A DNA stretch of 41,760 nt, from positions 1 through 41,760 of the IMG/VR virus record IMGVR_UViG_3300006916_000102. One strand, 5' to 3'. The DNA comes from a virus. How positions within the stretch are numbered: position 1 is the first letter of the stretch; every line of letters begins with the position of its first letter. This document shows positions 23,127 to 36,312 of the stretch, in pieces. The notes under the pieces were generated by a model. It searched no databases, was not told the origin of the DNA, and saw only the letters and a list, made by a program, of their open reading frames with translations. The position numbers were made by a program, and so were the translations under genes.

Positions 23127-23155
23127 ATTATAAAATGTAATTATTTATTTGTAAA
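23127..23155 (-). promoter_or_regulatory. sigma70 promoter for the HTH gene and primase
   Basis: On the minus strand TTTACA (23150-23155), a 17-base spacer and TATAAT (23127-23132) form a consensus-like promoter, 33 bases before the HTH start codon. It uses the same hexamers and spacing as the rightward early promoters. Confidence 0.75.
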
Positions 23156-23168
23156 CCTTAAATTGTAG

Positions 23169-23210
23169 ATTTTAAAATATATTTTAAAATATGTAAAATA
23201 AAGGTTTACA
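23169..23210. promoter_or_regulatory. operator cluster in the divergent control region
   Basis: Two perfect palindromes ATTTTAAAAT (23169-23178 and 23181-23190) are followed by TGTAAA-N7-TTTACA (23192-23210), which overlaps the rightward -35 box. The same elements recur at other early promoters. Placement between divergent promoters is typical for a repressor that controls both. Confidence 0.6.
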
Positions 23211-23233
23211 TTAAGAATAAGGGGATTTATAAT
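23205..23233 (+). promoter_or_regulatory. rightward early promoter 1
   Basis: TTTACA at 23205-23210, a 17-base spacer and TATAAT at 23228-23233. The likely transcript begins near 23240 and carries the conserved leader TTAGACAAATATAAACTT ahead of the first early gene. Confidence 0.75.
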
Positions 23234-23265
23234 AGAAAAGTCAATTAGACAAATATAAACTTAAA

Positions 23266-23808
23266 ATGATAAAAATTATGTCACACGATCATGAAGATAA
23301 TATAATTTGCCCACATTGCGATTCTACTTATTCATCTGAGCCTTATGAATATTATGATTCAGACGGAGAAGAATTAGAATGCGACGATTGTGGTAAGAAA
23401 TTTATTTTAGGAGTAAATACTTCAATAACTTTTTCTACTAATAAATCTGATTGTGAAGATGATAATCATGATATAGATGAAGAAAATATTGAAATAAGAA
23501 TATATGATCAAGAAACTTGCGATAGATATAATAGAGAAAAATTTTTAATAAGCGAAAGAAGACCTAAATGGGAACCTCATAAAAAAATAATAAAAAGTTG
23601 TAAAAATTGTGAACATCAAGAATATTCTGAAGATCTTCCTTTAAGACCTAAATGTGATAAAGGAACACATATTTTTGGTAAACCTTACGGAGAAAATTTA
23701 AAATCTATGTGTGGAACTTATTATACAAGAAGAGTTGATTGTAATAATTGTGAAGCTTATAATTATGTCGACGATAAAGGTAATATTGAATTTGAACATT
23801 TAAAATAA
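23266..23808 (+). CDS. multi-zinc-ribbon protein, first rightward early gene
   Basis: A 180-residue acidic protein with five CxxC-type pairs: CPHC near residue 18, CDDC near 39, CKNC near 116, then single Cys in CDKG and MCG, and CNNC near 162. These make at least two, perhaps three, zinc ribbons; the first pair with the second reads like a small rubredoxin-type knuckle. No known family is recognised. The first four codons (MIKI) come from the shared leader; ATG at 23278 (MSHDHE) is an equally good start. As the first early product it may act on host transcription, but this is a guess. Confidence 0.7.
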   Translation: MIKIMSHDHEDNIICPHCDSTYSSEPYEYYDSDGEELECDDCGKKFILGVNTSITFSTNKSDCEDDNHDIDEENIEIRIYDQETCDRYNREKFLISERRPKWEPHKKIIKSCKNCEHQEYSEDLPLRPKCDKGTHIFGKPYGENLKSMCGTYYTRRVDCNNCEAYNYVDDKGNIEFEHLK

Positions 23809-23815
23809 TAAAATT

Positions 23816-24049
23816 ATGAAACCTAGAAATAATATGATTAATATAAATTTAAATATAAGTTCTCTTGTTACTAAAGAACAAGCTGATAAACTATTATTTA
23901 GAAATAAAGACGGTATACCTAGAATTAATCCAAAAGAATTATCTAAATTAATAGAATCTAAAGAAATATTTGTTGATCAAATATCAAGTGAAACAGGTAT
24001 GCCTTACGGTAATCTTTCAATATCAATGATTCAAATAAACAATGACTAA
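23816..24049 (+). CDS. small protein of unknown function
   Basis: A 77-residue protein seven bases after the zinc-ribbon gene, so probably in the same transcript. It has a Lys/Asn/Ile-rich composition with no membrane segment or Cys. A start at the second Met (residue 7) is possible. No family is recognised. Confidence 0.55.
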   Translation: MKPRNNMININLNISSLVTKEQADKLLFRNKDGIPRINPKELSKLIESKEIFVDQISSETGMPYGNLSISMIQINND

Positions 24050-24203
24050 ATCATTAAAAAGATCAATTGACGAAGTTAATGTTAATTGTAGAAAATTAAA
24101 AAGAGAAATAATTCAGATTATATTTGAAAATAAATTAGTTTTTGGAATATGGTTTTGTAGCTATCCTTTTATATATTTATTAATCTGTTATTTAAGAAAA
24201 TAA
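24042..24203 (+). CDS. 53-residue single-pass membrane protein
   Basis: Overlaps the preceding gene by eight bases (ATGACTAA), which suggests translational coupling. The first 25 residues are basic and polar; residues about 30-50 (LVFGIWFCSYPFIYLLICY) form one hydrophobic helix, ending in LRK. An early phage inner-membrane peptide of this type could affect the host envelope, but there is no direct evidence. Confidence 0.5.
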   Translation: MTKSLKRSIDEVNVNCRKLKREIIQIIFENKLVFGIWFCSYPFIYLLICYLRK

Positions 24204-24206
24204 ACC

Positions 24207-24464
24207 ATGTGTAAATTAATTAAAGAAACTAAGCCAAAAGCAAGAAAGAATCATTTTTGTGATGGTCGAGAACAACTAATAACTCATTCATCAATAGATA
24301 ATGAGTTATTAGAAAATCAAATTGATAATTGTAAAGGTATTAAAAAAGGTGATCAATATATTAATCAATTTGTAGCAGAATCAGCTCATGAAGCTTATAT
24401 GTGGAAGAGTTGTTTAGGTTGTTATAAAGTAATTGCTGATTGTAATGTTTTTGATGAATCTTAA
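24207..24464 (+). CDS. Cys-rich small protein with PKARKNHFCD start
   Basis: An 85-residue protein. The pattern P-K-A-R-K-N-H-F-C near residues 10-18, then K-G-D-Q-Y, then S-C-L-G-C-Y-K near 68-74 resembles a small phage zinc-binding family also represented here at 37083 (P-K-A-K-K-N-Y-K-C-E-Y-C, K-G-E-I-Y). An insertion of about 20 residues follows the first Cys, and the second Cys of the first pair is shifted or lost. Function unknown. The next promoter begins just after its stop. Confidence 0.6.
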   Translation: MCKLIKETKPKARKNHFCDGREQLITHSSIDNELLENQIDNCKGIKKGDQYINQFVAESAHEAYMWKSCLGCYKVIADCNVFDES

Positions 24465-24478
24465 AATAAGTAAAATAA

Positions 24479-24508
24479 ATTTTAAAATATGTAAAATAAC
24501 TGTTTACA
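24479..24508. promoter_or_regulatory. operator elements at early promoter 2
   Basis: ATTTTAAAAT at 24479-24488 and TGTAAA-N7-TTTACA at 24490-24508, the right arm being the -35 box. A near-duplicate of the TTAAAATAAGTAAAATAA unit precedes it at about 24461-24478. Confidence 0.6.
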
Positions 24509-24531
24509 TTAAAGATTTAAGGTTCTATAAT
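24503..24531 (+). promoter_or_regulatory. rightward early promoter 2
   Basis: TTTACA (24503-24508), 17-base spacer, TATAAT (24526-24531), followed by the shared leader with TTAGACAAATATAAACTT and ATGATAAAA. Confidence 0.75.
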
Positions 24532-24563
24532 ATAAAAGTCAGTTAGACAAATATAAACTTAAA

Positions 24564-24791
24564 ATGATAAAAACAATGAAAAAATCTATAAATTTAATGA
24601 CTTTAAAAGAAATAAAAACTAAATTTACAATTGATCAAATGTTAGATATAATTGTAAAGTTTACTAAAGAAGCTGAAAAATATAAGTCTGCAATGAGATT
24701 TGCTAAAAGCCAAACTGAATATTCAATGAACGAATGTTTTTATGATATTGCAAATAGTAAAGTTAATAAATTAGAATCAATAGCTTATTAA
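24564..24791 (+). CDS. small helical early protein
   Basis: A 75-residue basic helical protein with no recognised family. The first four residues (MIKT) come from the shared leader, and the ATG at 24576 (MKKS) may be the actual start. Two Asn/Lys-rich helices are likely. It is the first gene behind early promoter 2. Confidence 0.55.
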   Translation: MIKTMKKSINLMTLKEIKTKFTIDQMLDIIVKFTKEAEKYKSAMRFAKSQTEYSMNECFYDIANSKVNKLESIAY

Positions 24792-24793
24792 TT

Positions 24794-24961
24794 ATGAAAG
24801 AAGATCAAATAATCATAAACAATTATTATAATTTTATAGGTCGCGATTTACCGATAAGATTAATTTCTATCAATAAAGATATAGTTGTTTTAGAATCTTT
24901 TGCTTTGTTTAGAATAAGTAAAGATTATTTTTTAACTAATTATCAGCCTTATGATCAATAA
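24794..24961 (+). CDS. 55-residue protein of unknown function
   Basis: Starts two bases after the previous stop. It is rich in Ile, Asn, Tyr and Phe, with a likely beta-rich core (IRLISINKDIVVLESFALFRI). No membrane segment is convincing. Tight spacing on both sides and a normal composition for the region support a real gene. Confidence 0.45.
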   Translation: MKEDQIIINNYYNFIGRDLPIRLISINKDIVVLESFALFRISKDYFLTNYQPYDQ

Positions 24962-25118
24962 ATTATTTAGATATTTATCAGAAATTCATATTTGTTCTTA
25001 TAAATTAAAAAGAGTTCAATTAATAACAGCTACAAGAGACGTTGAAATTTATGAATGTATGAAGTGTTTTAAACAAATTAGAAAACTTCATGATCATCAA
25101 AGAATTAACAATAATTAA
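24951..25118 (+). CDS. 55-residue zinc-knuckle-like protein
   Basis: Overlaps the previous gene by 11 bases. The sequence is basic and carries a CxxC pair (YECMKCFK, residues 36-39), an upstream Cys15 and His residues at 46-49 (HDH), enough ligands for one zinc site. Small zinc proteins of this kind often bind nucleic acid or polymerase; no family is recognised. Confidence 0.5.
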   Translation: MINKLFRYLSEIHICSYKLKRVQLITATRDVEIYECMKCFKQIRKLHDHQRINNN

Positions 25119-25123
25119 AATAA

Positions 25124-25231
25124 ATTTTAAAATAAGTAAAATAATTGTTTACATTATAAATCTTAAGATCTATAATATTAATATCAATTGAGCAATCAAT
25201 TAGATAAATATAAACTTTAAAATGATAAAAT
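25124..25231 (+). repeat. 108-bp exact direct repeat, copy 1 (promoter plus leader)
   Basis: Positions 25124-25231 are identical to 33401-33508. The unit holds ATTTTAAAAT, the -35 and -10 boxes, and the 5' leader to its ATGATAAAAT end, but no complete gene. Each copy drives a different operon segment. Confidence 0.9.
25148..25176 (+). promoter_or_regulatory. rightward early promoter 3
   Basis: TTTACA (25148-25153), 17-base spacer, TATAAT (25171-25176), with ATTTTAAAAT at 25124-25133 and AGTAAA-N7-TTTACA overlapping the -35 box. Its leader ends in a three-codon mini-ORF (25222-25233) that overlaps the next start by ATGA. Confidence 0.78.
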
Positions 25232-25421
25232 GATAAAAACAATAAAAAATATAAATGAAAAAATTACTTTAGTAAGACAAGAAATTAAAAACATTGATGA
25301 AAAACTTACTAAATTATATGATGAAGGATTTAAAAAAAATCAAATCAGAATTGAAGATTTAGAAGCTAAACAAAATCTTCTTAAAGATAAAAGAGAAGAA
25401 TTAATTTCTAAAACTATTTAA
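25230..25421 (+). CDS. 63-residue coiled-coil protein
   Basis: A highly charged helical protein with heptad-like Ile/Leu spacing over almost its full length (INEKITLVRQEIKNIDEKL; IEDLEAKQNLLKDKREEL), so probably a dimeric coiled coil. The start codon overlaps the TGA of an upstream mini-ORF (MIK stop), which suggests coupled translation. Function unknown. Confidence 0.6.
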   Translation: MIKTIKNINEKITLVRQEIKNIDEKLTKLYDEGFKKNQIRIEDLEAKQNLLKDKREELISKTI

Positions 25422-25512
25422 TAAGAATAAAAGTTTGAATTTACAACAAATTTAGTTAATTGACAATAGATAAATAATTAAAAAGCAATTGAACAAAACA
25501 AAAAATAGTAAA

Positions 25513-25532
25513 TGACGGCTCGGAAAGACGAG
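25513..25532 (+). ncRNA. short RNA hairpin, copy 1 of a repeated element
   Basis: TGACGG then CTCG-GAAAGA-CGAG forms a 4-bp stem with a hexaloop, 36 bases before the next gene. Nineteen of twenty bases recur at 28194-28213, where the stem is extended to five pairs. Here it is followed by TAATATAATTATTAAC, a segment also found before the ssDNA-binding protein gene. Confidence 0.45.
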
Positions 25533-25567
25533 TAATATAATTATTAACAATTAAAATATAAAATAAA

Positions 25568-26077
25568 ATGTCTTTAGAAAATGCAATCCTAAAATTAGCC
25601 GAAGCAATGAATAACAATGCTGAAGCAATAAGAGAATCAAATAAACCCATTATTGAAGGTTTTGAAAAACCTATAAAAACTCCGGTTGATCTTAATGTTG
25701 AAATTAAAAATCCTACTGAAGCTTTAGAATATGAAGTAGATAATGAAAAAAATGAAGTTAAGTTTAAAGAAAAGAAAAAATCAACAAAAACTAAAAAAGA
25801 AGAAATATCTATAGGTTATAAACCTGCTGAAGAAATTGCTCCGGTTGAAAAACAATCTAAATCTATTACAAAAGTTGAACTAAAAAAAGAAGTTGATGAA
25901 GTTAAGAAAATAACTTTTGAAGATGTTCAACAAATTGCAACAAGCAAAATGAAAGGAAAAGGTATTGATAGAAAAGTGGTTAAAAAAATCATTACTGATA
26001 TTAAAACTGATGCTCAAATATCAGATTTAAATGATGAAGAATTAGTTACTGCTTATAATCAAATTAACGCCCTTTAA
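25568..26077 (+). CDS. hypothetical protein preceding the DUF2800 nuclease gene
   Basis: A 169-residue charged protein. The first 30 residues are a helix of the MSLENAILKLAEAMNNNAEAI type, commonly seen in phage proteins next to DUF2800/DUF2815 genes. The centre (60-120) is low-complexity Lys/Glu. The C-terminal 50 residues (FEDVQQIATSKMKGKGIDRKVVKKIITDI) form a helical domain that could be nucleic-acid binding. The gene order suggests a role with the recombination proteins. Exact function unknown. Confidence 0.65.
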   Translation: MSLENAILKLAEAMNNNAEAIRESNKPIIEGFEKPIKTPVDLNVEIKNPTEALEYEVDNEKNEVKFKEKKKSTKTKKEEISIGYKPAEEIAPVEKQSKSITKVELKKEVDEVKKITFEDVQQIATSKMKGKGIDRKVVKKIITDIKTDAQISDLNDEELVTAYNQINAL

Positions 26078-26079
26078 AA

Positions 26080-26226
26080 ATGTCTAAAGAAAAAATAAAT
26101 AATCAATTAGAAGAATTAGATAAATTATTAAATGAAAAACGAGTTTTAAATGAAACAGATATTCTAAAAGTTTCAATACAAGCTATTCAAAAAATAATAA
26201 ATATATTAAAAGAAATTAATAATTAA
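26080..26226 (+). CDS. 48-residue coiled-coil protein
   Basis: Begins two bases after the previous stop and ends two before the DUF2800 gene, so it is clearly part of the operon. It is entirely helical, with Leu/Ile heptads (LEELDKLLNEKRVL; IQAIQKIINILKEI). The short linking gene may encode a subunit of a complex with its neighbours; no family is recognised. Confidence 0.55.
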   Translation: MSKEKINNQLEELDKLLNEKRVLNETDILKVSIQAIQKIINILKEINN

Positions 26227-26228
26227 AA

Positions 26229-27470
26229 ATGTCTGATACAAAACAAAAAGATCACGCAAAGCTTTCAGCTTCAGGATCTGCAAAATGGTTAAATTGTGCA
26301 GGTTCTGTTTTAGCTGAAGAGCAAACAGCTTTATTAGAAAAACAAAAGTATGATGAAGCTGTTGCAAGAGGTGAAAATCCTAAAATAAAAGTTAATACTT
26401 TTGCTGAACTTGGAACTTTAGCCCATGAATTAGCTGATATTTGTTTAAAAAAAGAACAAGATGCTATTGAGTGGGTTGATCGAGAAATTTCTTGTGAGTC
26501 TGATGGTAAACTATTAAAAATAGTTGTAGATAAAGAAATGGCTAAATTTGTTCAAGAATATCTTGATTATGTTAGAGCTCATGAAACTAATAATTCTCAA
26601 TTATATACTGAGGATAGAGTTGATTTTTCTCATCTTGTGCCAGAAGGTTTTGGAACTTTAGATAGTGCTGTTTTAGATTATAGCACCGGAATTTGTCATA
26701 TTTTTGATTTAAAATATGGCGAAGGTGTTTTAGTTGAAGCTGAAGAAAATACTCAAGGCCAATTATATGCTTTAGGTTTATATAATGAATTAAAATTTTT
26801 AGATATTATTAAATCTTTTAAAATCCATATTGTTCAGCCTAGAAAATACTCAATTACTTCTTGGGAAATATCAGTTAAAGATTTAACTAAATTTGGTGAA
26901 AGAGCTAAACTTAGAGCTAAACTAGCTTTAGCAAAAAATCCTAAAAGAACTCCAGGTGAAAAACAATGTACTTGGTGTGATGCAAGATTTACTTGTAAAG
27001 CCTTAGAAGAATTTACTTTTGAGCTTATATCTGATGATTTTGAAGATTTAGGGGCTAAAAATCTTAATAAATTACCTGAAGAAGCTATGAAAAAAATTAA
27101 TTCAATTTCTGATGAAAGAATCAAAGAGTTATTAGATAATAAGAAATTAATAGAGAAATTTCTTAAAAATATCGAAGAGCATACTTTAGAAAGAATGCAA
27201 AAAGGTGAAAAAATACCAGGTTACAAATTAGTTCAAAAGAAATCTAATAGAACTTGGATAAATGAAGCTGAAGCAGTATTAGTTGAAGAGTTAGGAGAAA
27301 AAGCTTATACTCAAAAACTAATTGGAATTACAGCAGCTGAAAAACTTCTTGATAAAAAACAAATGGAAGAACTTACTTACAAACCTGAAGGCGGTATTGA
27401 AATGGCTCCTGAAAAAGATAAAAGAGAAGCTGTTCAATGTGTTATTGATCAATTTGAGGATATTAAATAG
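26229..27470 (+). CDS. DUF2800 PD-(D/E)XK nuclease with Cys cluster
   Basis: A 413-residue protein. The N-terminus has the family's SASGSAKWLNCAGS (Cys23) and GTLAHELADICL. The nuclease core lies near residues 139-162: GTLDSAVLD followed by IFDLKYG, giving D and D-x-K. A Cys group near 246-257 (QCTWCDARFTC), with Cys23, is arranged like the iron-sulphur cluster of Cas4/AddB-type nucleases. It probably processes DNA ends for phage recombination. It stands just upstream of the DUF2815 ssDNA-binding gene, the usual pairing. Confidence 0.88.
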   Translation: MSDTKQKDHAKLSASGSAKWLNCAGSVLAEEQTALLEKQKYDEAVARGENPKIKVNTFAELGTLAHELADICLKKEQDAIEWVDREISCESDGKLLKIVVDKEMAKFVQEYLDYVRAHETNNSQLYTEDRVDFSHLVPEGFGTLDSAVLDYSTGICHIFDLKYGEGVLVEAEENTQGQLYALGLYNELKFLDIIKSFKIHIVQPRKYSITSWEISVKDLTKFGERAKLRAKLALAKNPKRTPGEKQCTWCDARFTCKALEEFTFELISDDFEDLGAKNLNKLPEEAMKKINSISDERIKELLDNKKLIEKFLKNIEEHTLERMQKGEKIPGYKLVQKKSNRTWINEAEAVLVEELGEKAYTQKLIGITAAEKLLDKKQMEELTYKPEGGIEMAPEKDKREAVQCVIDQFEDIK

Positions 27471-27499
27471 AAATTTATTTTATAAATATTAAATTTTAA

Positions 27500-27528
27500 T
27501 TTACATTTAAAATCTATGTATTTATAAT
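27500..27528 (+). promoter_or_regulatory. rightward early promoter 4 (before ssDNA-binding protein)
   Basis: TTTACA (27500-27505), 17-base spacer, TATAAT (27523-27528). Unlike the other promoters it lacks the ATTTTAAAAT palindrome and the TGTAAA arm, so it may be under different control. Confidence 0.7.
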
Positions 27529-27533
27529 AAATA

Positions 27534-27559
27534 TTGTTCAAGTGTGGCGATTTGAGCAA
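27534..27559 (+). ncRNA. 5'-end hairpin of the ssDNA-binding protein mRNA
   Basis: TTGTTCAA (27534-27541) and TTGAGCAA (27552-27559) form an 8-bp stem (one G-T pair) with a 10-base loop. It begins about six bases after the -10 box, so it would lie at the very 5' end of the transcript, where hairpins protect mRNA from decay. Confidence 0.5.
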
Positions 27560-27602
27560 TTACTTTTTGCCAATATAATTATTAACTTAAAATTTAAATA
27601 AA

Positions 27603-28112
27603 ATGTCTAAAAAAATTAAAATCGAAAATGCAAGATTATCTTATCCAAATCTTTTTCAAAAAGGATTTTATGAAGGTAAAGAAAATAAGAAATATACAGC
27701 AACATTAGTTTTAGATAAATCTAATCCTAAGCATATTGCCGCTAAAAAGCTTATTGACGAGCAAATTGAAACTATCTATAAAGAAACTAAGACAGAAAGA
27801 ATTGACTTCAAAGAAGACAAATTTTGTGTTAAAGAAGAATCGGCAGATTTTGAAAATTCTTGGTTAATTAAAGTAGGTAATTCTAAACGCCCTACTATTA
27901 TTGATAGAGATAAATCTCCATTAGCTGAAAGTGATGAAAAAATCTATGCAGGTTGCTATGTAAATGTAATTATAGATTTTTATTATTACGATAAGCAATA
28001 TGGTAAATTTATTTTATCTAACTTATATGGAGTTCAATTTTCTGAAGATGGTGAACCTTTTGGAACTGGCCCTGTAGATGTTACTGATGAATTTGATGAT
28101 ATTGATCTATAA
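27603..28112 (+). CDS. DUF2815 ssDNA-binding protein
   Basis: A 169-residue OB-fold protein. The start KKIKIENARLSYPNLFQ, the KYTATLVLDK segment and the acidic end (DVTDEFDDIDL) are typical of DUF2815, a T7 gp2.5-like phage SSB family. The acidic tail should contact polymerase or helicase, as in other SSBs. It has its own promoter and hairpin leader, fitting the high amounts needed. It lies between the DUF2800 nuclease and the polymerase. Confidence 0.88.
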   Translation: MSKKIKIENARLSYPNLFQKGFYEGKENKKYTATLVLDKSNPKHIAAKKLIDEQIETIYKETKTERIDFKEDKFCVKEESADFENSWLIKVGNSKRPTIIDRDKSPLAESDEKIYAGCYVNVIIDFYYYDKQYGKFILSNLYGVQFSEDGEPFGTGPVDVTDEFDDIDL

Positions 28113-28193
28113 ATCATCAATAAAGAATGGCGGTGTTTATTATTTTAAACGGTGTAGTAGCTTAAAGGTGAATAACTTGGTATAAAAAATAAT

Positions 28194-28214
28194 TGACAGC
28201 TCGGAAAGACGAGC
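28194..28214 (+). ncRNA. short RNA hairpin, copy 2 of a repeated element
   Basis: GCTCG-GAAAGA-CGAGC preceded by TGACA; differs by one base from the 20-base copy at 25513-25532. Here it is followed by ATTCTTTTT, so it might act as a weak terminator after the ssDNA-binding gene, but copy 1 has no T run. Confidence 0.5.
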
Positions 28215-28222
28215 ATTCTTTT

Positions 28223-28290
28223 TATGTTTAAATGTGTCGTCATTTATAGTTAAACGTTCCAAATTATTTATGGCGGCACTTTTAAGCATA
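28223..28290 (+). ncRNA. 21-bp stem-loop within the structured RNA candidate
   Basis: The arms are 28223-28243 and 28270-28290, with a 26-base loop. Twenty of 21 positions pair (three G-U), with one T-T mismatch. G-U pairs and the mismatch suggest an RNA, not DNA, structure. Confidence 0.65.
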
Positions 28291-28398
28291 AATTAGCAAA
28301 TCATCTAGTGACAGTTAAGACACATAATAAATTAAGAGACGTCAGATCAGGCCTGACTTTGTTAATTTATGCTGATATAAAATCATAAAACGAATATA

Positions 28399-30342
28399 AT
28401 GGAAAATTTAGTAGTATTAGATTGTGAGGTTTATCCTAACTATTTTCTAGTAGCTTTTAAAAGCTTAGATTTAGGTAAAATAATTACAATAGAAATAAAA
28501 GGCGAAAATAATGTATTGGACAATGAATCCCATAGAAAGCTTAATACTATTATGCAAACAAGACATACTTTTGGTTTCAATAGCCGAAATTATGACATCC
28601 CCGTTATACTCTTTGCTCTAAGAAGAAAATCAGCCTCTCAAATTCATCAATTATCATCATTCATTATTGAAAATAATGCTTACGGTTGGCAAACCATGCA
28701 AAAATTCGGTTTAAATTGGGATAAAAATAAAATTAAACATTTTGATGTTCAAGAACCGGCTCCAGGCGTTAAAGTAAGCCTTAAGCTTTACGGTGGAAGA
28801 ATGCACTCAAAAAGATTGCAAGATCTTCCTATCGAGCCTAATTCAATGCTAACAGATAAAGAAATGCAAGATACATTACTTTATTGTATAAATGATCTTG
28901 ATACTACAATTGATCTTTATAATTCAATTAAAGATAGAATTGATTTACGTGTTGATATGTCAAAGCAATATGATCAAGATTTAATGAGTAAATCGGATGC
29001 TCAAATTGCAGAAGCTTTAATTAAATCAGAATTATCTAAGAAAAATCCACATAAAAACATAAAAGCGCCTAAATTACCAGATAATTTAAGTTTTAAACCT
29101 GATATTCCAGAATTTATTAAATTTGAAACAAAACAACTTCAAGATATTTTAGATATTATAAAGAATCATCATTTCAAATTAGATGCAAAAGGTTCTGTTA
29201 AATTACCACCTGAATTAAAAAAAGCTAAAATAGAAATAGGAAATTCTATTTATCAAATCGGAATCGGTGGTTTACATTCTACAGAAAGTAATCAAGCAAT
29301 GGTTCCTAAAGCTGATGAGCTATTAATTGATAAAGACGTAGCTTCATATTATCCTGCAATTATTGTTAATAATGATCTATATCCTAAACATTTAGGAACT
29401 GATTTTTTAGATGTTTATAAAGATATTATGGCCACAAGGCTTAAAGCTAAAAAAGAAGGAAATAAAGTTATTAATGAATCATTAAAGATTGTTTTAAATG
29501 GAACTTATGGTAAATTAGGTAGTAAATATTCAGTTATTTATTCGCCAGATTTATTGGTTACTGTAACACTTACCGGCCAATTATCTTTGTTAATGTTGAT
29601 CGAGAAGCTTGAATTAAAAGGAATTTCTGTTGTTTCAGCAAATACTGATGGTTTTGTTTCATTACTAAAAAAAGATCAATATGAGTTATATTCAATAGTT
29701 TGTTTTGACTGGGAATTAATAACAGGTTTTGATTTAGAAGAAAATAAATATAAAGGTTTATTTTCAAGAGATGTTAATAATTACTTTGCTATTACTGAAT
29801 ATGGAATAAAAAGAAAAGGAATTTTTGTTGTAGATGAGTTAAGTAAAAATCCAGGTGGCGCTATTTGTGTTAATGCTATAGTTGAATATTTAGTAAACAA
29901 AACTCCAATAGAAAAAACAATAAAAGAATGTAAAGATATAACTCAATTTTTATTAGTTAGAAGTGTTACAGGTGGAGCTGTTTTTAAAGATAAATATTTA
30001 GGAAGAGTTGTTAGATGGATTTATTCAACAAAAGGAAATACGATTACTTATAAAATAAGAGAAGATATTGATTTAACAGCTACTAGAAAAATCTTAAAAG
30101 AAAATAAAGATCAAATTAAACCTGAAAAATTTGATATTATAATTAAAGCTTCAAAAAAGCAATTAAAAGAAGTTTATTTTGAATATAGTAGATTTTTTGT
30201 AAATAAAATAACAAATCCTAAAGTGCCTAAATCTGAATATTCTAGGCCTATTATGGAGTTAAATGAATTTCCTGATGATATTGATTACAATAGATATATC
30301 GGGGAAGCTTTAGAAATATTAACAAACTTAGGAATGAAATGA
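28399..30342 (+). CDS. family B-type DNA polymerase with proofreading exonuclease
   Basis: A 647-residue polymerase. Exonuclease motifs: ExoI D8-C-E10, ExoII F-N61-SRNY-D66, ExoIII Y162-CIN-D166. Polymerase motif A is D313-VAS-YYP, motif B K363-IVL-N367-GTYG. Motif C reads S413-A-N-T-D417, so the first Asp of the usual D-T-D is Asn and the Tyr is Ser; the catalytic second Asp is kept. N-T-D forms occur in some phage polymerases, so activity is likely. It is compact, with no terminal-protein region recognised. The SSB gene lies just upstream. Confidence 0.88.
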   Translation: MENLVVLDCEVYPNYFLVAFKSLDLGKIITIEIKGENNVLDNESHRKLNTIMQTRHTFGFNSRNYDIPVILFALRRKSASQIHQLSSFIIENNAYGWQTMQKFGLNWDKNKIKHFDVQEPAPGVKVSLKLYGGRMHSKRLQDLPIEPNSMLTDKEMQDTLLYCINDLDTTIDLYNSIKDRIDLRVDMSKQYDQDLMSKSDAQIAEALIKSELSKKNPHKNIKAPKLPDNLSFKPDIPEFIKFETKQLQDILDIIKNHHFKLDAKGSVKLPPELKKAKIEIGNSIYQIGIGGLHSTESNQAMVPKADELLIDKDVASYYPAIIVNNDLYPKHLGTDFLDVYKDIMATRLKAKKEGNKVINESLKIVLNGTYGKLGSKYSVIYSPDLLVTVTLTGQLSLLMLIEKLELKGISVVSANTDGFVSLLKKDQYELYSIVCFDWELITGFDLEENKYKGLFSRDVNNYFAITEYGIKRKGIFVVDELSKNPGGAICVNAIVEYLVNKTPIEKTIKECKDITQFLLVRSVTGGAVFKDKYLGRVVRWIYSTKGNTITYKIREDIDLTATRKILKENKDQIKPEKFDIIIKASKKQLKEVYFEYSRFFVNKITNPKVPKSEYSRPIMELNEFPDDIDYNRYIGEALEILTNLGMK

Positions 30343-30575: not shown

Positions 30576-30810
30576 AATATTACAATTAAAAAATATAGGT
30601 CGCGCTATCCATAAATATCCAGATGATAAATTTGTTTCAAATTGCTTAAGTGCAAGAGAAGTAAAAATTCAGATTTATATGTGGGGAAGAGACTTTGAAG
30701 CTAAAAAAGAAACTGATGAAAAATTATTAGAATCTATTTTAGAATCAGCAAAACAAGAACTTAAAGTTTTAGTATCAGGTGATACTGTTCAAGCTTTAAT
30801 TTGCCCTTAA
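30565..30810 (+). CDS. 81-residue protein of unknown function
   Basis: Overlaps the previous gene by 11 bases. It is mostly helical and charged, with a short NIGRAIHKYPDDKFVSNCLSAREVKI start and a Glu/Lys-rich second half. It has no recognised family. Close spacing to the polymerase segment suggests coexpression. Confidence 0.55.
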   Translation: MKNKILQLKNIGRAIHKYPDDKFVSNCLSAREVKIQIYMWGRDFEAKKETDEKLLESILESAKQELKVLVSGDTVQALICP

Positions 30811-30834
30811 TATTAACTTAAAATAATAAAAATT

Positions 30835-31320
30835 ATGTTTAAACCAGCTCAAGATATTCCAGAATTTATTCTTAAATTCATTAATGAAAGTAAGGCTATT
30901 GAAGGTATTTATAGGCCTGCTAGCGAAGCTGAAATTGAAACTGCTCTTAAGTTTCTTGATCTCAAGCAATTAACTTTAGCAGATTTAGAAAATTTTGTTT
31001 TAGTTTATCAACCTGATGCAAAATTACGTGATCAAATAGGCTTAAATGTTACTGTAGGAAATTATAGTCCACCAAAAGGCGGTCCTGAAATTAAGTTAAA
31101 TTTAGTTAGTTTTATTAATTCAATTAATGATAAATCAACTAATAAAGGTAAAGATCCTTTCTTAGCTCATAAGAAATTTGAGTCTTTACATCCATTTACT
31201 GATTGTAATGGAAGAACAGGAAGAATTATTTGGTTGTGGCAAATGCTAAAACTCAAGAAGAACTTTGCACCGCTTGGCTTCATGCAGTCTTGGTATTACC
31301 AATCGCTAAATAATAAATAA
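30835..31320 (+). CDS. Fic-domain protein with intrinsic inhibitory motif
   Basis: A 161-residue Fic protein. The catalytic loop is H119-PF-T-D123-C124-N125-G126-R127-TG-R130; the standard HPFx(D/E)GNGRxxR has Gly where this has Cys124. The flap region shows GNYSPPKGGPEIK (75-87), and the end (LGFMQSWYYQSL) is typical of a phage Fic group. Near the N-terminus S19-KAI-E23-G24 is the (S/T)xxxE(G/N) inhibitory motif that blocks ATP binding by pairing Glu with the loop Arg. Fic enzymes transfer AMP or other groups from nucleotides to protein hydroxyls. The target here is unknown. Confidence 0.85.
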   Translation: MFKPAQDIPEFILKFINESKAIEGIYRPASEAEIETALKFLDLKQLTLADLENFVLVYQPDAKLRDQIGLNVTVGNYSPPKGGPEIKLNLVSFINSINDKSTNKGKDPFLAHKKFESLHPFTDCNGRTGRIIWLWQMLKLKKNFAPLGFMQSWYYQSLNNK

Positions 31321-31323
31321 AAA

Positions 31324-31345
31324 TTTGTAAAAAGTAGTTTACAAA
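31324..31345. promoter_or_regulatory. perfect operator-like inverted repeat at promoter 5
   Basis: TTTGTAAA and TTTACAAA, separated by six bases, form an 8-bp perfect inverted repeat whose right arm contains the -35 box of the promoter before the GapR-like gene. It is the longest-armed copy of the TGTAAA/TTTACA element. Confidence 0.6.
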
Positions 31346-31366
31346 TAAGAAAATATATTTTAAAAT
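31338..31366 (+). promoter_or_regulatory. rightward early promoter 5 (before GapR-like gene)
   Basis: TTTACA (31338-31343), 17-base spacer, TAAAAT (31361-31366). The ATTTTAAAAT palindrome here (31357-31366) covers the -10 box itself, a direct block position for a regulator. Confidence 0.6.
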
Positions 31367-31407
31367 ATAGAAACTTACTACCCTTAATAATTTAAATAAA
31401 AACTAAA

Positions 31408-31659
31408 ATGATAAATAATACAATTACAAATGAAACAAAATTAGAGCTTAAAAATATGGTTGAAGAGGTTGAAAGATTGACTTCTCAAAAAGATCAAATT
31501 ACAAGTGAAATTAGAGAAACTTTTGAAGCAGCAGCAAATAAAGGATTTGATGTTAAAGCTATGAAAGAGGTAATTAAACTTCGCAAAAAAGATCCACAAA
31601 AAGCTATTAGTGAAGAAGATATGAGAGAACTTTACAAAGATTTATTAATTGAAATTTAA
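31408..31659 (+). CDS. GapR-like nucleoid protein (DUF2312)
   Basis: An 83-residue protein aligning by eye over its full length with alphaproteobacterial GapR: LKNMVEEVERLTSQKDQITSEI (first helix), then AANKGFDVKAMKEVIKLRKKD, with the conserved GFD and LRKKD, and a final short helix. GapR binds AT-rich, overtwisted DNA as a clamp and aids replication. A phage copy may manage its own AT-rich DNA or compete with the host protein. It has its own promoter, with the operator palindrome in the -10 box. It also marks an alphaproteobacterial host. Confidence 0.9.
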   Translation: MINNTITNETKLELKNMVEEVERLTSQKDQITSEIRETFEAAANKGFDVKAMKEVIKLRKKDPQKAISEEDMRELYKDLLIEI

Positions 31660-31667
31660 GGATAAGT

Positions 31668-31877
31668 ATGGAAACTAAAGATATTGAAAATATAATGGAT
31701 TTAATTGAGTTAACAAATAAAAATGCTAACGAAGGTAAATCTGAAGTTTTTGAACTTTCGCAAGCTGATGAATTAGATGAAAAAGAAAAATCTATTTCTA
31801 AAAAGTTTGATGAAATATTAGAAAATTTAGATGAAATTTATAAAATAATTCAATTTAAACATATAATAAAATGCTAA
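31668..31877 (+). CDS. small acidic helical protein
   Basis: A 69-residue acidic protein eight bases after the GapR-like gene, with an AAGGA-like ribosome site. It is helical, rich in Glu, Lys and Leu (MDLIELTNKN, ISKKFDEILENLDEIYKII). It overlaps the next gene by seven bases. No family recognised; its acidity and place next to a DNA-binding protein might suggest a partner, but that is only inference. Confidence 0.5.
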   Translation: METKDIENIMDLIELTNKNANEGKSEVFELSQADELDEKEKSISKKFDEILENLDEIYKIIQFKHIIKC

Positions 31878-32281
31878 ATTTAGTAAAACAAATGCACCAA
31901 AAATTTGGAATAACTTCTGATAAAGTAAAATTTTCTGATGAAGAAAAGAAATTTCGAATTTGTGCAATGCAAGAAGAATTGGACGAATATAAAGAAGCTA
32001 CCTCAAAAGAAGATGAGCTAGATGCTTTAGTTGATCTTGTTGTTTTTGCTTTAGGAACTGCTGAAAGGCAAGGTATGCTTGAAGTTTTTGATGAAGCTTT
32101 CTATAGAGTTATGATTGCAAATTGTAAAAAAGAGATCGGAACGAATCAAAAAAGAGGTTTGTTTCAACTGGATTTAGTAAAACCAAAGGGTTGGACTGCT
32201 CCAGATTTAAAAGATTTGGTTGAGGAAAAACCTCGCCAGATGACTTTATTTGATTATATCCCTGAACCTAAACAAAAATAA
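31871..32281 (+). CDS. MazG-like nucleotide pyrophosphohydrolase
   Basis: A 136-residue all-alpha NTP pyrophosphatase. The metal-binding E35-E36-xx-E39 (QEELDEY) and the E49-L-D51-xxx-D55 helix (DELDALVDLVVFALG) give the EExxE plus DELxDxxxD arrangement. Enzymes of this group hydrolyse NTPs or dNTPs to monophosphates. Here it sits at the head of a nucleotide cassette (thymidylate synthase-family enzyme, dCMP deaminase, DHFR), so removing an unwanted dNTP or supplying dNMP is plausible. Confidence 0.8.
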   Translation: MLNLVKQMHQKFGITSDKVKFSDEEKKFRICAMQEELDEYKEATSKEDELDALVDLVVFALGTAERQGMLEVFDEAFYRVMIANCKKEIGTNQKRGLFQLDLVKPKGWTAPDLKDLVEEKPRQMTLFDYIPEPKQK

Positions 32282-32283
32282 TT

Positions 32284-32574
32284 ATGCCAGATAAAATAGA
32301 AAAAACATTAAAAGAAAGAGAATCAGTTTATGGTGAGTTTGAAGATAATGCCGATATAACTCAAGAGTTAATCAAAGTTATTGAAAATGCTCCGAGTTAC
32401 TCAAAATTGAGTAAACAACATTTAGAAGCTTTCCACATGATTTTCCACAAAATTTCAAGAGCTGTTTGTGGTGATCCTGATTATATTGATAATATTCATG
32501 ATATAGTTGGCTACGCTAAACTTCTTGAAGATTTTTTAATTGAAAAACAAGCTTTAAAAAATGGCGAACTTTAA
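32284..32574 (+). CDS. DUF6378-like phage protein
   Basis: A 96-residue helical protein. The pattern LKERESVYGEFEDNADITQEL and HLEAFHMIFHKISRAVCGDPDYIDNIHDIVGYAKLLEDF matches small phage proteins of the DUF6378 group, with a conserved R-x-x-x-Y-G and H-D-x-x-G-Y-A. Function unknown; the helices and acidic residues resemble the MazG fold, perhaps a related phosphohydrolase. It overlaps the next gene by 14 bases. Confidence 0.7.
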   Translation: MPDKIEKTLKERESVYGEFEDNADITQELIKVIENAPSYSKLSKQHLEAFHMIFHKISRAVCGDPDYIDNIHDIVGYAKLLEDFLIEKQALKNGEL

Positions 32575-33391
32575 AGATATTTACAAAGATATTCTAATAA
32601 AAGTTTATGATCAAGGTGTTTGTGAAACTAATAAACGCACAAATACCTTGATCAAGGTTGCTAGAGAGCCTATATTTTTTAATATAGATTTAAGCAATAA
32701 CCTATTACCGATTGCCGGAAATAGAACTATTTGGCCACATATTGCAGCTGCAGAAGTAGCATGGCAAACTCAAGGAACTAAAGATCCAGAATTTATTCTT
32801 AAATATGCACCAAAATTATGGAGTAAATTTATTGAAGATGGTGAATTAAAATCTGCTTATGGTTACCGCTGGCATAAAAATTTTAATCGCGATCAAATAA
32901 AATTAGCTATTGAAGCATTAATAGAAGATCCAACTAATCGCCAGGTCTATATTTCAAACTGGGATCCGTCAACAGATGGATTAGGTGAGCCTAATCAGCC
33001 TAAAAATATTCCTTGCCCGCTTGGTTTTACACTAAATATTATTGATAATAAATTAAATATGTCAGTAATGATAAGATCATCGGATGTTTATGTAGGGCTT
33101 CCTTATGATGTTTTAGCTTATAGTTTAACTTTAGACTTAATTGCTAAAACTTTAGGTATATCAAAAGGAAATATTTCTTTTACTTTATCTCATGCCCATA
33201 TTTATCAGCCTCATTTTAAAGCTGTTGAAGAAAATTTAAGAGGTGATCAAACAGAATTTAAAGATATTAATATTGAATTTAAGCAAGCTACATATAGCCA
33301 GGTTCAAACTTATCCTGATGTTTTTGTTAAGGTTTATAAAGAAGAAAAAATTGAAAACTTTTGGAATCCTAAACCGGAAGTAATTGAATAA
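32561..33391 (+). CDS. thymidylate synthase-family enzyme, probably acting on dCMP
   Basis: A 276-residue ThyA-fold protein. Residues matching E. coli ThyA: E65, Y100, R127, catalytic Cys152 (NIPCPLGF), R172-S-S-D175, H213 and Y215. The key difference is GLPYD183: the Asn that reads the uracil base in ThyA (N177) is Asp here. The same Asn-to-Asp change is found in T4 dCMP hydroxymethylase and makes thymidylate synthase prefer dCMP. The residue after Cys152 is Pro rather than His. So it may be a dCMP methylase or hydroxymethylase. A nearby DHFR gene favours a reaction releasing dihydrofolate. Confidence 0.85.
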   Translation: MANFKDIYKDILIKVYDQGVCETNKRTNTLIKVAREPIFFNIDLSNNLLPIAGNRTIWPHIAAAEVAWQTQGTKDPEFILKYAPKLWSKFIEDGELKSAYGYRWHKNFNRDQIKLAIEALIEDPTNRQVYISNWDPSTDGLGEPNQPKNIPCPLGFTLNIIDNKLNMSVMIRSSDVYVGLPYDVLAYSLTLDLIAKTLGISKGNISFTLSHAHIYQPHFKAVEENLRGDQTEFKDINIEFKQATYSQVQTYPDVFVKVYKEEKIENFWNPKPEVIE

Positions 33392-33400
33392 GTAAAATAT

Positions 33401-33508
33401 ATTTTAAAATAAGTAAAATAATTGTTTACATTATAAATCTTAAGATCTATAATATTAATATCAATTGAGCAATCAATTAGATAAATATAAACTTTAAAAT
33501 GATAAAAT
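33401..33508 (+). repeat. 108-bp exact direct repeat, copy 2 (promoter plus leader)
   Basis: Identical to 25124-25231. The unit again carries palindrome, promoter and leader. It lies immediately downstream of the ThyA-family gene and drives the dCMP deaminase/DHFR part. Confidence 0.9.
33425..33453 (+). promoter_or_regulatory. rightward early promoter 6
   Basis: TTTACA (33425-33430), 17-base spacer, TATAAT (33448-33453); ATTTTAAAAT at 33401-33410. The leader ends in a four-codon mini-ORF (33499-33513, MIKL) overlapping the next ATG by ATGA. Confidence 0.78.
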
Positions 33509-33509
33509 T

Positions 33510-33698
33510 ATGACTGATAAAATTAAAAACCAAATCAAACAAGCTCTTCAAGCTTCCATTCAAGAAATGTCGGTAGATATAATAGAAAACACTTTAGACA
33601 AAGTGTTTACCGATTCAAACTTTTCAGATAAAGAAACAGATCAAGTAAATTTATTAATTCATGAGTTAGTTGATCAATTAATTAAAAATATCAAATAA
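33510..33698 (+). CDS. 62-residue acidic helical protein
   Basis: A small helical protein (IKQALQASIQEMSVDIIENTLDKV; LLIHELVDQLIKNI) with no recognised family. The start overlaps the upstream mini-ORF stop (ATGA), implying coupled initiation. Its next neighbour is the dCMP deaminase. Confidence 0.55.
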   Translation: MTDKIKNQIKQALQASIQEMSVDIIENTLDKVFTDSNFSDKETDQVNLLIHELVDQLIKNIK

Positions 33699-33700
33699 TC

Positions 33701-34114
33701 ATGCAAAATAAATGGGACGAAAGATTTTATCAACTAGCAGAAACTGTTGCTAGTTGGTCTAAAGATAAAACAAAAGTAGGTTGTGCTTTAATTTCTCCAG
33801 ATCGAACTCAAGTTTCTTATGGATATAATGGTTTTCCTCGTGGAATAAAAGATGATGAAAGAATAACAGCTGAAAATAAAAATCAGTTAATAATTCATGC
33901 AGAAATTAATGCAATTTTGAATGCTAAAGTAAATTTAACCGGTTGGACGCTATATTGCACAAAATTTCCATGTATTGAGTGTGCAAAGGCTATAATTCAA
34001 AGCCATTTTAAGCGAATTGTGGTTAAACGACGTTTAGAGAGCTCCTGGGCAGATTCTCAACAGTTGGCTTATGATCTTATAAAAGAATCAAAAATAATCA
34101 TTTCTGAGGTATGA
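33701..34114 (+). CDS. dCMP deaminase
   Basis: A 137-residue zinc deaminase. The HAE motif (H66-A-E68, within HAEINAIL) and P90-C91-IE-C94 supply the zinc ligands and catalytic Glu. The N-terminal SKDKTKVGCALISPD segment is typical of the dCMP deaminase family. It converts dCMP to dUMP. Together with a ThyA-family enzyme and DHFR it forms a pyrimidine cassette. The size is normal for phage enzymes. Confidence 0.9.
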   Translation: MQNKWDERFYQLAETVASWSKDKTKVGCALISPDRTQVSYGYNGFPRGIKDDERITAENKNQLIIHAEINAILNAKVNLTGWTLYCTKFPCIECAKAIIQSHFKRIVVKRRLESSWADSQQLAYDLIKESKIIISEV

Positions 34115-34115
34115 T

Positions 34116-34556
34116 ATGCAACTAATTTTAGGGCTAAGTAAAAATAATTTTATAGCAAAGTCTGAAAATGACAATATGGAGTGGTTAAAAGCTGATAAAA
34201 ATGTATTTCGTCTTTTATCAGCTACAAACGGAGGTATTAATTATATTTCTATGAAAAGCGGCCGATTTATGCCGGAAATTTTACCCGGTAGAAAAATAAT
34301 TAAATTAAGTCGTAAAAGTTTAAATCTTGATATGGCTTATATGTTAAATAAAAAATCAAATTTATTAGGCGGGCAAACTTTAGCTTTAGAGGCAATTAAT
34401 AAAAATTATATTACTGATATATTTTTGACTTATACACCAATTGAGTTAAAAGAAGGAATTAAATTTAATCTTGATAATATTATTGCTGAAAAATTTAATC
34501 TTGCTCAAACAATAACTATTGATGGAATTATTGTTAAACATTGGAAATTAAAATAA
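34116..34556 (+). CDS. dihydrofolate reductase-like protein
   Basis: A 146-residue protein with a recognisable DHFR layout: ILGLSKNNFIA at the start, EWLKAD with the position of the active-site acid, ILPGRKIIKLSR (the PLPGRKN motif) and LLGGQTLALEAI (the GG of the NADPH site), then IFLTYTPIEL. It is shorter and more divergent than bacterial DHFR. It regenerates tetrahydrofolate after a reaction that oxidises it, as the ThyA-family methylation does. It starts one base after the deaminase stop. Confidence 0.82.
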   Translation: MQLILGLSKNNFIAKSENDNMEWLKADKNVFRLLSATNGGINYISMKSGRFMPEILPGRKIIKLSRKSLNLDMAYMLNKKSNLLGGQTLALEAINKNYITDIFLTYTPIELKEGIKFNLDNIIAEKFNLAQTITIDGIIVKHWKLK

Positions 34557-34832
34557 ATGAAAGAGTCTATTATTGAAACTACTGTTTGTGATTATGCAAA
34601 AAGTAGAGGTTGGAAAACTTATAAATTTGTAAGTCCGGGGAATAAAGCGGTTCCTGATCGTATTTTTTTAAGAAGAACTATCTGCTTTTTTATTGAATTT
34701 AAACAAAAAGGAAAAAAGCCTACAAAATTACAAGAAAAAGTAATTAGTGATATTAAGAAAGAAGGCTTTGAAGTTTTTGTTTGTGATGATATTAAAGATG
34801 GTTTTACAATTATTAATGGTTTTGAAATTTAG
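34557..34832 (+). CDS. VRR-NUC domain nuclease
   Basis: A 91-residue stand-alone VRR-NUC protein: E6 in the first helix, P33-D34-R, then I-E47-F-K49 giving the PD-(D/E)XK core, and L-Q-E-K near 58-61. Phage VRR-NUC proteins are thought to resolve or cut branched DNA. It follows the DHFR gene directly (stop and start adjacent) and precedes an SNF2-like helicase, a pairing common in phages. Confidence 0.88.
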   Translation: MKESIIETTVCDYAKSRGWKTYKFVSPGNKAVPDRIFLRRTICFFIEFKQKGKKPTKLQEKVISDIKKEGFEVFVCDDIKDGFTIINGFEI

Positions 34833-34838
34833 AATATA

Positions 34839-36179
34839 ATGCGTAAAAAATCACAACTTTATAATCATCAAAAAACAACTATTGAAATAGCTAAAGATCT
34901 AAAAAAATGTGCTTTATTTTTAGATATGGGAATGGGAAAAACTGCAACAAGTTTAACTATTTCTAGTTTTTTTTATGATGATTTGTTTATTGATAAAACT
35001 TTAATTATTGCACCGAAAAGAGTTGCTAAAAGTGTTTGGCACAAAGAAGCTAAGCAATGGGAACACTTAAAAGATTTAAATATTAAAATTTGTGTAGGTT
35101 CAGAAAAAGAAAGGCTTGCTGCTTTAAATTCTGAGGCTGATATTTATGTGATCAATAAAGATGTTATTCCTTGGCTTGTTAAAAACTACAAATGGAAATG
35201 GGATATGGTTATTGGTGATGAATCATCAATGTTTAAAACTCATTCAAGTAAAAGAGTTAGAGCTTTAAGAAAAATATTAAAAAATCTAAAAAGTATTATT
35301 TTATTAACTGGAACGCCTTCTCCAAATGGTTATATGGATTTGTGGAGCCAGATATTTTTAATTGATCAAGGTGAAAGGTTAGGAAAAACAATTACCGGTT
35401 TTCGTCAAAGATTTTTTGATGTTGATTATATGGGTTATAATTATACATTAAAACCGGGAGCAAAAGAACAAATTGATAATCTTATAAAAGATATTTGTGT
35501 TACTATGTCAAGCGAGGATTACCTTGATTTACCCGAAGTAATACCTTTAACAGAATATATTGAACTTCCTGAAGATGTTAAAAAACAATATAAAGAATTA
35601 GAAAAAACCTTTTTATTACAATTAGAAAAAGCTGAAATTACTTCAGCTTCAGCTGCTGTTTTATCTAATAAACTATTGCAAATGTGTAATGGGGCTATTT
35701 ATGATGAAGAAAAGAATACTCATGAAATTCATGATGAGAAGATAAAAACCTTAAAAGAAATAATAGAAGATAATCCTAATGAAAACTTTTTAATAGGTTA
35801 TAATTTTAAATCTGATCTAAAAAGAATTAAAAAAGCTTTTCCTAAAGCTGTAGAATTAAAAACTACAGAAGATGAAGATAAATGGAATGAAGGAAAAATA
35901 AAGATGTTATTAGCCCACCCTGCTTCGGCCGGACACGGTTTAAACTTACAATATGGAGGTTCTATTTTAATTTGGTTTGGATTAACCTGGAATTTAGAGC
36001 ATTACCAACAATTTAATAAAAGGCTACATCGTCCAGGGCAAACAAAACCTGTAAGAATTATTCATATTGTGGCTAAAGGTTGTTTAGATGAAAGAGTAAT
36101 GTTAGCTCTAGGCAGTAAAGCAAAGACTCAACAAGATCTTTTAGACTATCTTAAATACAAAGAGATTGTATCAAAATGA
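34839..36179 (+). CDS. SNF2-family helicase/translocase
   Basis: A 446-residue SF2 ATPase. Motif I: D-M-G-M-G-K34-T; motif II: D-E-S-S near 126 in place of DEAH; motif III: L-T-G-T-P near 157-161; motif V: ASAGHGLNLQ; motif VI: QQFNKRLHRPGQ near 390-401. The sequence is compact, with no extra domain. SNF2 proteins move along double-stranded DNA and remodel protein-DNA or branched DNA. Linked with the VRR-NUC nuclease, it probably serves phage replication or recombination. Confidence 0.92.
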   Translation: MRKKSQLYNHQKTTIEIAKDLKKCALFLDMGMGKTATSLTISSFFYDDLFIDKTLIIAPKRVAKSVWHKEAKQWEHLKDLNIKICVGSEKERLAALNSEADIYVINKDVIPWLVKNYKWKWDMVIGDESSMFKTHSSKRVRALRKILKNLKSIILLTGTPSPNGYMDLWSQIFLIDQGERLGKTITGFRQRFFDVDYMGYNYTLKPGAKEQIDNLIKDICVTMSSEDYLDLPEVIPLTEYIELPEDVKKQYKELEKTFLLQLEKAEITSASAAVLSNKLLQMCNGAIYDEEKNTHEIHDEKIKTLKEIIEDNPNENFLIGYNFKSDLKRIKKAFPKAVELKTTEDEDKWNEGKIKMLLAHPASAGHGLNLQYGGSILIWFGLTWNLEHYQQFNKRLHRPGQTKPVRIIHIVAKGCLDERVMLALGSKAKTQQDLLDYLKYKEIVSK

Positions 36180-36228
36180 TACAGTATTTAACCTATTTAA
36201 AATAAATTTAAAAATATGCAAAATATAG

Positions 36229-36257
36229 TTTACATATTAAATATTATGTTTTATAAT
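36229..36257 (+). promoter_or_regulatory. rightward early promoter 7
   Basis: TTTACA (36229-36234), 17-base spacer, TATAAT (36252-36257). Upstream TGCAAA-N6-TTTACA is a weaker copy of the operator, and the ATTTTAAAAT palindrome is only approximate. It drives the last genes of the early strand. Confidence 0.72.
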
Positions 36258-36312
36258 TAATATATGAGTTAAGGAATTAATTCATTTTTATTAATTTAAT
36301 CGTGAGGAACGC

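Follow-up and report, generated by a model that had tools for sequence, protein, structure and literature searches.

Why does a single phage genome carry closely matched promoter sequences at many dispersed places, some of them ahead of unrelated genes? We addressed this question in IMG/VR virus record IMGVR_UViG_3300006916_000102, the whole of which (41,760 bases, 28.5% G+C) is referred to here as the window. It encodes Mu-type head genes, a phrog_1252 B-type DNA polymerase, a thymidylate synthase, and an SNF2-type helicase. An earlier note on this DNA had described at least seven matched early promoters between 23127 and 36257, built from TTTACA, a 17-base spacer, and TATAAT, and had proposed that they form a dispersed regulon with shared operators bound by a small helix-turn-helix (HTH) protein or a GapR-like protein. 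We found that the promoters form a lineage-wide family that is not due to chance. We favor the reading that they are strong early promoters of the T4 type, serving the host polymerase with its main sigma factor and multiplied as a copied cassette that carries a hairpin at the 5′ end of the transcript.

The sites and the genes of the two proposed binders are given below. At least four of the promoters belong to a repeat that we call class A, and relatives are designated by G or L numbers.

22885..23094, minus strand: small HTH_26 (Cro/C1-type) protein of 69 amino acids, PF13443 E=8e-5, divergent from the early genes
23127..23155, minus strand: promoter of the HTH gene, TTTACA-N17-TATAAT, no 5′ hairpin
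23150..23210, no strand: divergent core, a 10-bp inverted repeat of TGTAAACCTT (23150-23159) and AAGGTTTACA (23201-23210) that holds both -35 boxes
23181..23280, plus strand: class A cassette with UP-like element 23181-23204, promoter 23205-23233, short GTC-N5-GAC hairpin 23240-23250, and A-rich start region
24471..24578, plus strand: class A cassette with promoter 24503-24531, 86% identical to the copy at 23173-23280
24624..24652, plus strand: exact match inside open reading frame (ORF) 24564-24791, a false positive
25110..25234, plus strand: class A cassette with promoter 25148-25176 and 5′ hairpin 25182-25206 (10 bp, loop GCAA), 98% identical to 33387-33511
27500..27528, plus strand: promoter of the ssDNA-binding protein gene, AT-only upstream and without the class A element, long 5′ hairpin 27533-27560, kept in G011 and G019
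31338..31366, plus strand: promoter of the gapR-like gene, TTTACA-N17-TAAAAT, with a spacer like that of the HTH promoter and no hairpin; orthologous promoters in L132 and L082
31408..31659, plus strand: GapR-like DNA-binding protein, PF10073 E=7e-19
33387..33511, plus strand: class A cassette with promoter 33425-33453 and 5′ hairpin 33459-33483
36229..36257, plus strand: promoter of the rightmost small-gene operon, TGCAAAATATAG upstream, 5′ hairpin 36264-36285, with a relative in G012 at 29637

All of the sites listed in the earlier note are present where it placed them, and the promoter pattern survives comparison with shuffled sequence. Exact TTTACA-N17-TATAAT occurs eight times in the window, compared with a mean of 0.085 and a maximum of 1 in 200 dinucleotide shuffles, and none of 500 shuffles of the early region reached eight. 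Seven of these matches are sites already described, the remaining described site (31338) differing by its TAAAAT. The eighth, at 24624, has a counterpart at the corresponding intragenic position of the orthologues in G020, G021, L132, and L082, differing there by a single change in the -10 box, and we therefore regard it as coding sequence. We also found TTTACA-N17-TAAAAT on the minus strand at 23197-23169, a site equal in quality to 31338 that had not been described. The spacing is nearly invariant: TTTACA and TATAAT are never paired exactly at spacings of 10-16, 18-20, 22, or 24, and only once each at 21, 23, and 25, and TTGACA-N17-TATAAT is absent from the window.

Could such matches be merely compositional, a product of chance in very A/T-rich DNA? 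A loose sigma-70 scan is in keeping with this idea, with 117 sites compared with 96 in shuffles, as is the palindrome ATTTTAAAAT upstream of several promoters, which is not enriched once a mismatch is tolerated (32 compared with 38 expected). However, the exact excess, the single spacing, the intergenic position of the sites and their co-orientation with genes, the existence of 125-bp copies that are 98% identical, and conservation in relatives make chance very improbable. Close relatives were retrieved with profiles of the major capsid protein and then of the primase and HTH proteins; single-sequence scans of IMG/VR with the HTH protein or the DNA polymerase returned no close relatives. The related contigs contain 33 further exact matches, compared with 0 for a reversed control pattern. 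The picture in the earlier note of dispersed early promoters of host type that act as a coordinated set is thus supported. Its observation that the promoter at 27500 lacks the proposed operator also holds, as the class A upstream element is absent there and from the corresponding promoter in G011 and G019.

Not all members of the family are built alike. The HTH and gapR promoters have in common a second spacer type, TTTACAAATAA...TTTTATAAT or TTTTAAAAT, and neither has a leader hairpin in the window. Separately, an A/T-only class, TTTACA-TTTATAATTTAATATAT-TATAAT, is found in up to four copies near the terminase genes of G002, G004, G021, and L132, where it serves as the promoter of small unknown genes that have been inserted into the late region.

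What kind of promoter is this? In T4, the early -35 element is GTTTAC at -36 to -31, with UP-like, A-rich sequence ahead of it at -40 to -44 (PMC1524935), and the ‘uber’ early promoters that T4 presents to the host polymerase combine UP, -35, TGn, and -10 elements (PMC2988021). We found 26 matches to GTTTAC-N18-TATAAT in the T4 genome when at most one mismatch was allowed, 25 of them on the early strand. The window promoters follow the same plan. A G precedes TTTACA in seven of the eight promoters (the exception being an A at 27500), the T at -33 is present, the spacer is 17 bp and leads to TATAAT, and the sequence at -40 to -44 is A-rich and UP-like. With the -35 box at -35 to -30, the AAAA tracts of class A promoters occupy -45 to -42 and -54 to -51. 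These positions lie inside the UP subsites for the C-terminal domain of the polymerase alpha subunit (alpha-CTD), which extend from -45 to -37 (proximal) and from -58 to -45 (distal) (PMC2613000).

This core extends beyond the lineage. Among 31 independent occurrences of GTAAAATAANNGTTTACAT on IMG/VR contigs without homologues of the window phage, 12 have TATAAT exactly 17 bp downstream, and none has an exact TATAAT at spacings of 14-16 or 18-23. Several of the contigs encode T4-type proteins (gp46-like SbcC, NrdA, DnaB-type helicase, DNA polymerase, and terminase), and those of their promoters that were identified independently of the pattern are also A-rich at -4 to -9 and have a G before TTTACA.

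If the core is shared, what belongs to this lineage? Comparison of the copies suggests that it is the whole cassette of ~110-125 bp. The cassette comprises ATTTTAAAAT and TAAAATAA upstream, the promoter, usually a 5′ RNA hairpin, and an A-rich start region without a Shine-Dalgarno motif. The class A repeat at 23205, 24503, 25148, and 33425 spans 108-125 bp, beginning some 35 bases ahead of the -35 box and reaching the region of the start codon. The copies at 25110-25234 and 33387-33511 are 98% identical, lie 8.3 kb apart, and precede unrelated genes. By comparison, the 33425 cassette is 78% identical to that of the orthologue of gene 33510 in G019, and the G019 cassette is in turn 97% identical to paralogous cassettes in the close relative G011. 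Because identity is higher within a genome than between relatives, the copies appear to be kept alike by copying or gene conversion, and the alignments point to concerted evolution or cassette swapping. The cassettes may mediate module shuffling, since they stand before unrelated genes and seem to evolve in concert, but no recombination junction was observed. The cassette also contains ATGATAAAA (33498-33512 and 25223-25234), a frame of three or four codons with its stop codon overlapping the real start or directly beside it (ATGATAAAATTATGA), an arrangement that could give translational coupling.

The transcripts themselves appear to begin with structure. A stem-loop is found at the predicted 5′ end in 9 of 13 independent leaders, compared with 3.1 expected from shuffles (P ~3e-4, a guide only, since the idea arose from the data), and the mean folding z-score of the leaders is -2.4, compared with -0.3 for random 40-mers of the early region. 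At most promoters other than those of HTH and gapR, the hairpin follows the -10 box at a distance of 0 to 8 bases. Its place is constant and its sequence is not, as in TATCAATTGA-GCAA-TCAATTAGATA, TTGTTCAA...TTGAGCAA, ATATGAGTTAA...TTAATTCATAT, and TATCG...CGATA. By eye, ATC/GAT in long leaders and GTC/GAC in short ones form a paired change, and stem changes in L132 and G011 remain G-U paired; the MAFFT alignment of the leaders misplaced the short type, and we claim no covariation statistics. Stem-loops at the 5′ terminus are known to hinder RppH and RNase E and so to stabilize mRNA (PMC3997798), and by analogy the window hairpins may protect the early mRNAs.

At the translation starts, only 9 of 70 window genes have a Shine-Dalgarno-like motif. 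Most starts are preceded by A/T-rich sequence (AAAATG, ATTATG), unlike those of several T4-like contigs with the same promoter core, which have AAGGAGG. Since most starts lack the motif, the A-rich region before ATG may be a working start signal. On the plus strand, terminators were detected only at 28199 and 28341, neither of them at a cassette. These are two terminator-like hairpins, GCTCGGAAAGACGAGC (28199-28214) and GTCAGATCAGGCCTGAC (28341-28357), in a structured 286-base gap (28113-28398) ahead of the DNA polymerase gene, and a near copy of the GCTCGGAAAGACGAGC hairpin is found at ~25515-25535, ahead of ORF 25568. An Rfam scan recognized no RNA family in the window, this gap included.

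Do the promoters also share operators? The first candidate of the earlier note, the ATTTTAAAAT palindrome, does occur in excess when exact, with eight copies in the window (2.1 expected) and six in the early region (1.1 expected). Only the copies at 23181, 24479, 25124, and 33401 lie at a constant position relative to the -35 box (24 to 15 bases ahead of it), which class A promoters keep both here and in relatives. The copy at 31357 is out of place: it overlaps a -10 box and is something else. Taken alone, the palindrome is a weak signal. The second candidate, TGTAAA-N6/7-TTTACA over the -35 box, is exact at three promoters (23205 and 24503 with N7, 31338 with N6), and the others depart from it, with AGTAAA at 25148 and 33425 and TGCAAA with N6 at 36229. 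Thus, no single fixed operator sequence was found at every site. The dyad with N6 resembles the TyrR box (TGTAAA-N6-TTTACA), a likeness that we set aside because class A has N7. Moreover, GTTTACA with its A-tracts fits a T4-type promoter with UP subsites, and the same core is found in unrelated phages. In favor of operators, the upstream block is specific to the lineage: every contig matched by a longer pattern that includes the distal TTTTAAAATA half, including the newly found L259 and L261, holds homologues of the window phage. A shared operator at the dispersed promoters is possible.

If such an operator exists, the 69-amino-acid HTH protein is the leading candidate to bind it. In this alternative, the protein would bind TGTAAA-N6/7-TTTACA, ATTTTAAAAT, or both at all class A promoters and shut the early genes off together. 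The HTH gene is present and divergent from the cassettes in cassette-bearing relatives wherever the region is covered, with homologues 64-71% identical in G008, G011, G012, G020, G021, L132, and L139. In eight related contigs, exactly 50 bp separate the -35 boxes of its divergent promoter pair, the pair in the window contains the TGTAAACCTT/AAGGTTTACA repeat, and AATTTAAGGTTTACAAAT, in the -35 region of the HTH promoter, is kept in the window, G008, and G011. The lineage specificity of the ATTTTAAAAT block points the same way. However, only three of eight promoters have the exact dyad, whose spacing shifts by one base from class to class, G-TTTACA with its A-tract also occurs in T4 and in unrelated T4-like phages, and G008 has an HTH protein that is 71% identical without the class A block. 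We consider a role for this protein at the dispersed copies, as proposed in the earlier note, rather unlikely.

A local role is more plausible. The constant 50-bp spacing and the inverted repeat fit an autoregulated divergent pair, and the HTH protein probably acts at its own promoters (23127-23233), autoregulating or braking them. PF00589 (tyrosine integrase) is absent from the window and seven related records, other integrase types not having been searched; the lack of a tyrosine integrase in any relative searched gives no indication that the HTH protein is a lysogeny repressor, and it too speaks against the regulon. Aca regulators of anti-CRISPR operons are very small HTH proteins beside a strong early promoter, on which they possibly act as a brake, and the window has the same layout. 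The match of the HTH protein to Aca11 is weak (E=0.027), lending the regulon a little support, and no anti-CRISPR gene was recognized in the window. Separately, in L136, a distant relative (43% G+C) whose HTH protein is 45% identical, a perfect inverted repeat, TTGTAAAC-N14-GTTTACAA, lies upstream of the HTH gene at ~5420-5470 and may mark an HTH operator.

The GapR-like protein is a far less probable coordinator. The idea that it binds the A/T-rich blocks of the early promoters draws on its PF10073 match to a family of nucleoid proteins and on the family promoter (31338) of its own gene. However, G019 and L035 lack gapR at the syntenic position, although the close relative L013 retains it and all three have the identical cassette; none was found in G008, a 46.6-kb relative whose ends repeat (the same promoter at 4 and 45860). 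GapR is also described as recognizing positively supercoiled DNA rather than a fixed sequence (PMC8360656). We therefore rejected GapR as the cassette binder, contrary to the earlier suggestion, and give it very little probability as a coordinator. In G019 and L035, the Fic gene, gapR, and the next small gene (window 30835-31877) are all gone, L013 keeping gapR and the small gene, a pattern that looks like a recent indel within the lineage. A second, weak GapR-like stretch (25895-26056, in ORF 25568-26077) scored 16.7 bits, below the cut-off.

Which host would read these promoters? A search of 84,980 genomes with the capsid profile for a related prophage gave zero matches. The best 80 matches to the GapR-like protein are 30-47% identical, and nearly all are titled Alphaproteobacteria or members of that class, which suggests at most an alphaproteobacterial link. 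A near-identical contig, G001, connects the gene at 41126-41758 to the start of the window with ~2.4 kb between them; the record thus represents an incomplete, circularly permuted or cut genome.

We therefore return to T4-type early promoters multiplied as a cassette. During infection, the host polymerase would bind the -35 and -10 boxes and would touch the A-tracts near -42/-45 and -51/-54 through its alpha-CTDs. The 5′ stem-loop would hinder RppH and RNase E and so stabilize early mRNAs. Recombination among the repeated cassettes would keep the copies within a genome alike and would also let cassettes land ahead of newly acquired small genes, while the HTH protein would autoregulate or brake the divergent pair. 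Several observations weigh against this account. No window promoter has a TGn (extended -10) element or a GT-rich sequence before the -10 box, as T4 promoters do. The ‘unrelated’ contigs were retrieved with a pattern taken from the window phage. The inner G of TGTAAA and the ATTTTAAAAT block are kept more than a plain UP element needs and the full block is confined to the lineage, which leaves room for a specific binding protein. The hairpin test was devised after the data had been seen, and the short class A leaders (23205 and 24503) have only a 3-bp hairpin. Finally, promoter starts are predicted from sequence, and the -35 preference of the host and its use of alpha-CTD and RNase E are assumed. 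A more ambitious version, in which a self-homogenizing cassette (UP element, T4-type promoter, mRNA-protecting hairpin, and start without Shine-Dalgarno motif) moves as a unit by recombination in a non-T4 lineage, gives new genes early expression, and is throttled in all its copies by the HTH protein of the founding divergent copy, is speculative, and we hold it with little confidence.

What would such cassettes mean for phages? A T4-style early promoter that can move as a cassette would not be confined to T4-type phages, and the cassette could also bring an RNA element at the 5′ end of the transcript. This offers a concrete route by which phages could express newly acquired small genes at once, and a sequence handle for locating early, host-takeover genes in uncultured phages.

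How does the window family compare with known repeated elements? T4-like phages have mobile regulatory cassettes, the promoter early stem-loops (PeSLs), reportedly described by Arbiol in 2010 and Comeau in 2014. PeSLs likewise join an early promoter to a stem-loop, are repeated in regions of gene shuffling, and are copied between places (PMC4503421). The window has the same union of early promoter and stem-loop, but there the stem-loop is a leader hairpin after the start site rather than a terminator, none having been found at the cassettes, and the phage lineage is different. The ESAS elements of cluster K mycobacteriophages (PMC3203893) are also repeats with inverted repeats, found before some non-structural genes and conserved with them. 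However, ESAS lies at a Shine-Dalgarno-like start element and its arms lack RNA pairing, whereas the window repeat has a full sigma-70-type promoter and keeps RNA pairing. Stoperators of cluster A mycobacteriophages resemble the window family in having many dispersed copies of one element per phage; they are repressor sites that also terminate elongation at many places in the genome (PMC9283540), whereas the window element is always a promoter and its binder is only a candidate.

The closest likeness is to the T4-type early promoters themselves, which have the same place for G-TTTACA, the 17-bp spacer, TATAAT, the A-rich stretch at -40 to -44, and many dispersed copies, often before novel small ORFs. 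The window phage differs in not being T4-type, with its Mu-like head and phrog_1252 B-type polymerase, and in having no TGn. To the shared promoter it adds the lineage-specific distal ATTTTAAAAT block, leader hairpins at +1, and starts with no Shine-Dalgarno motif.

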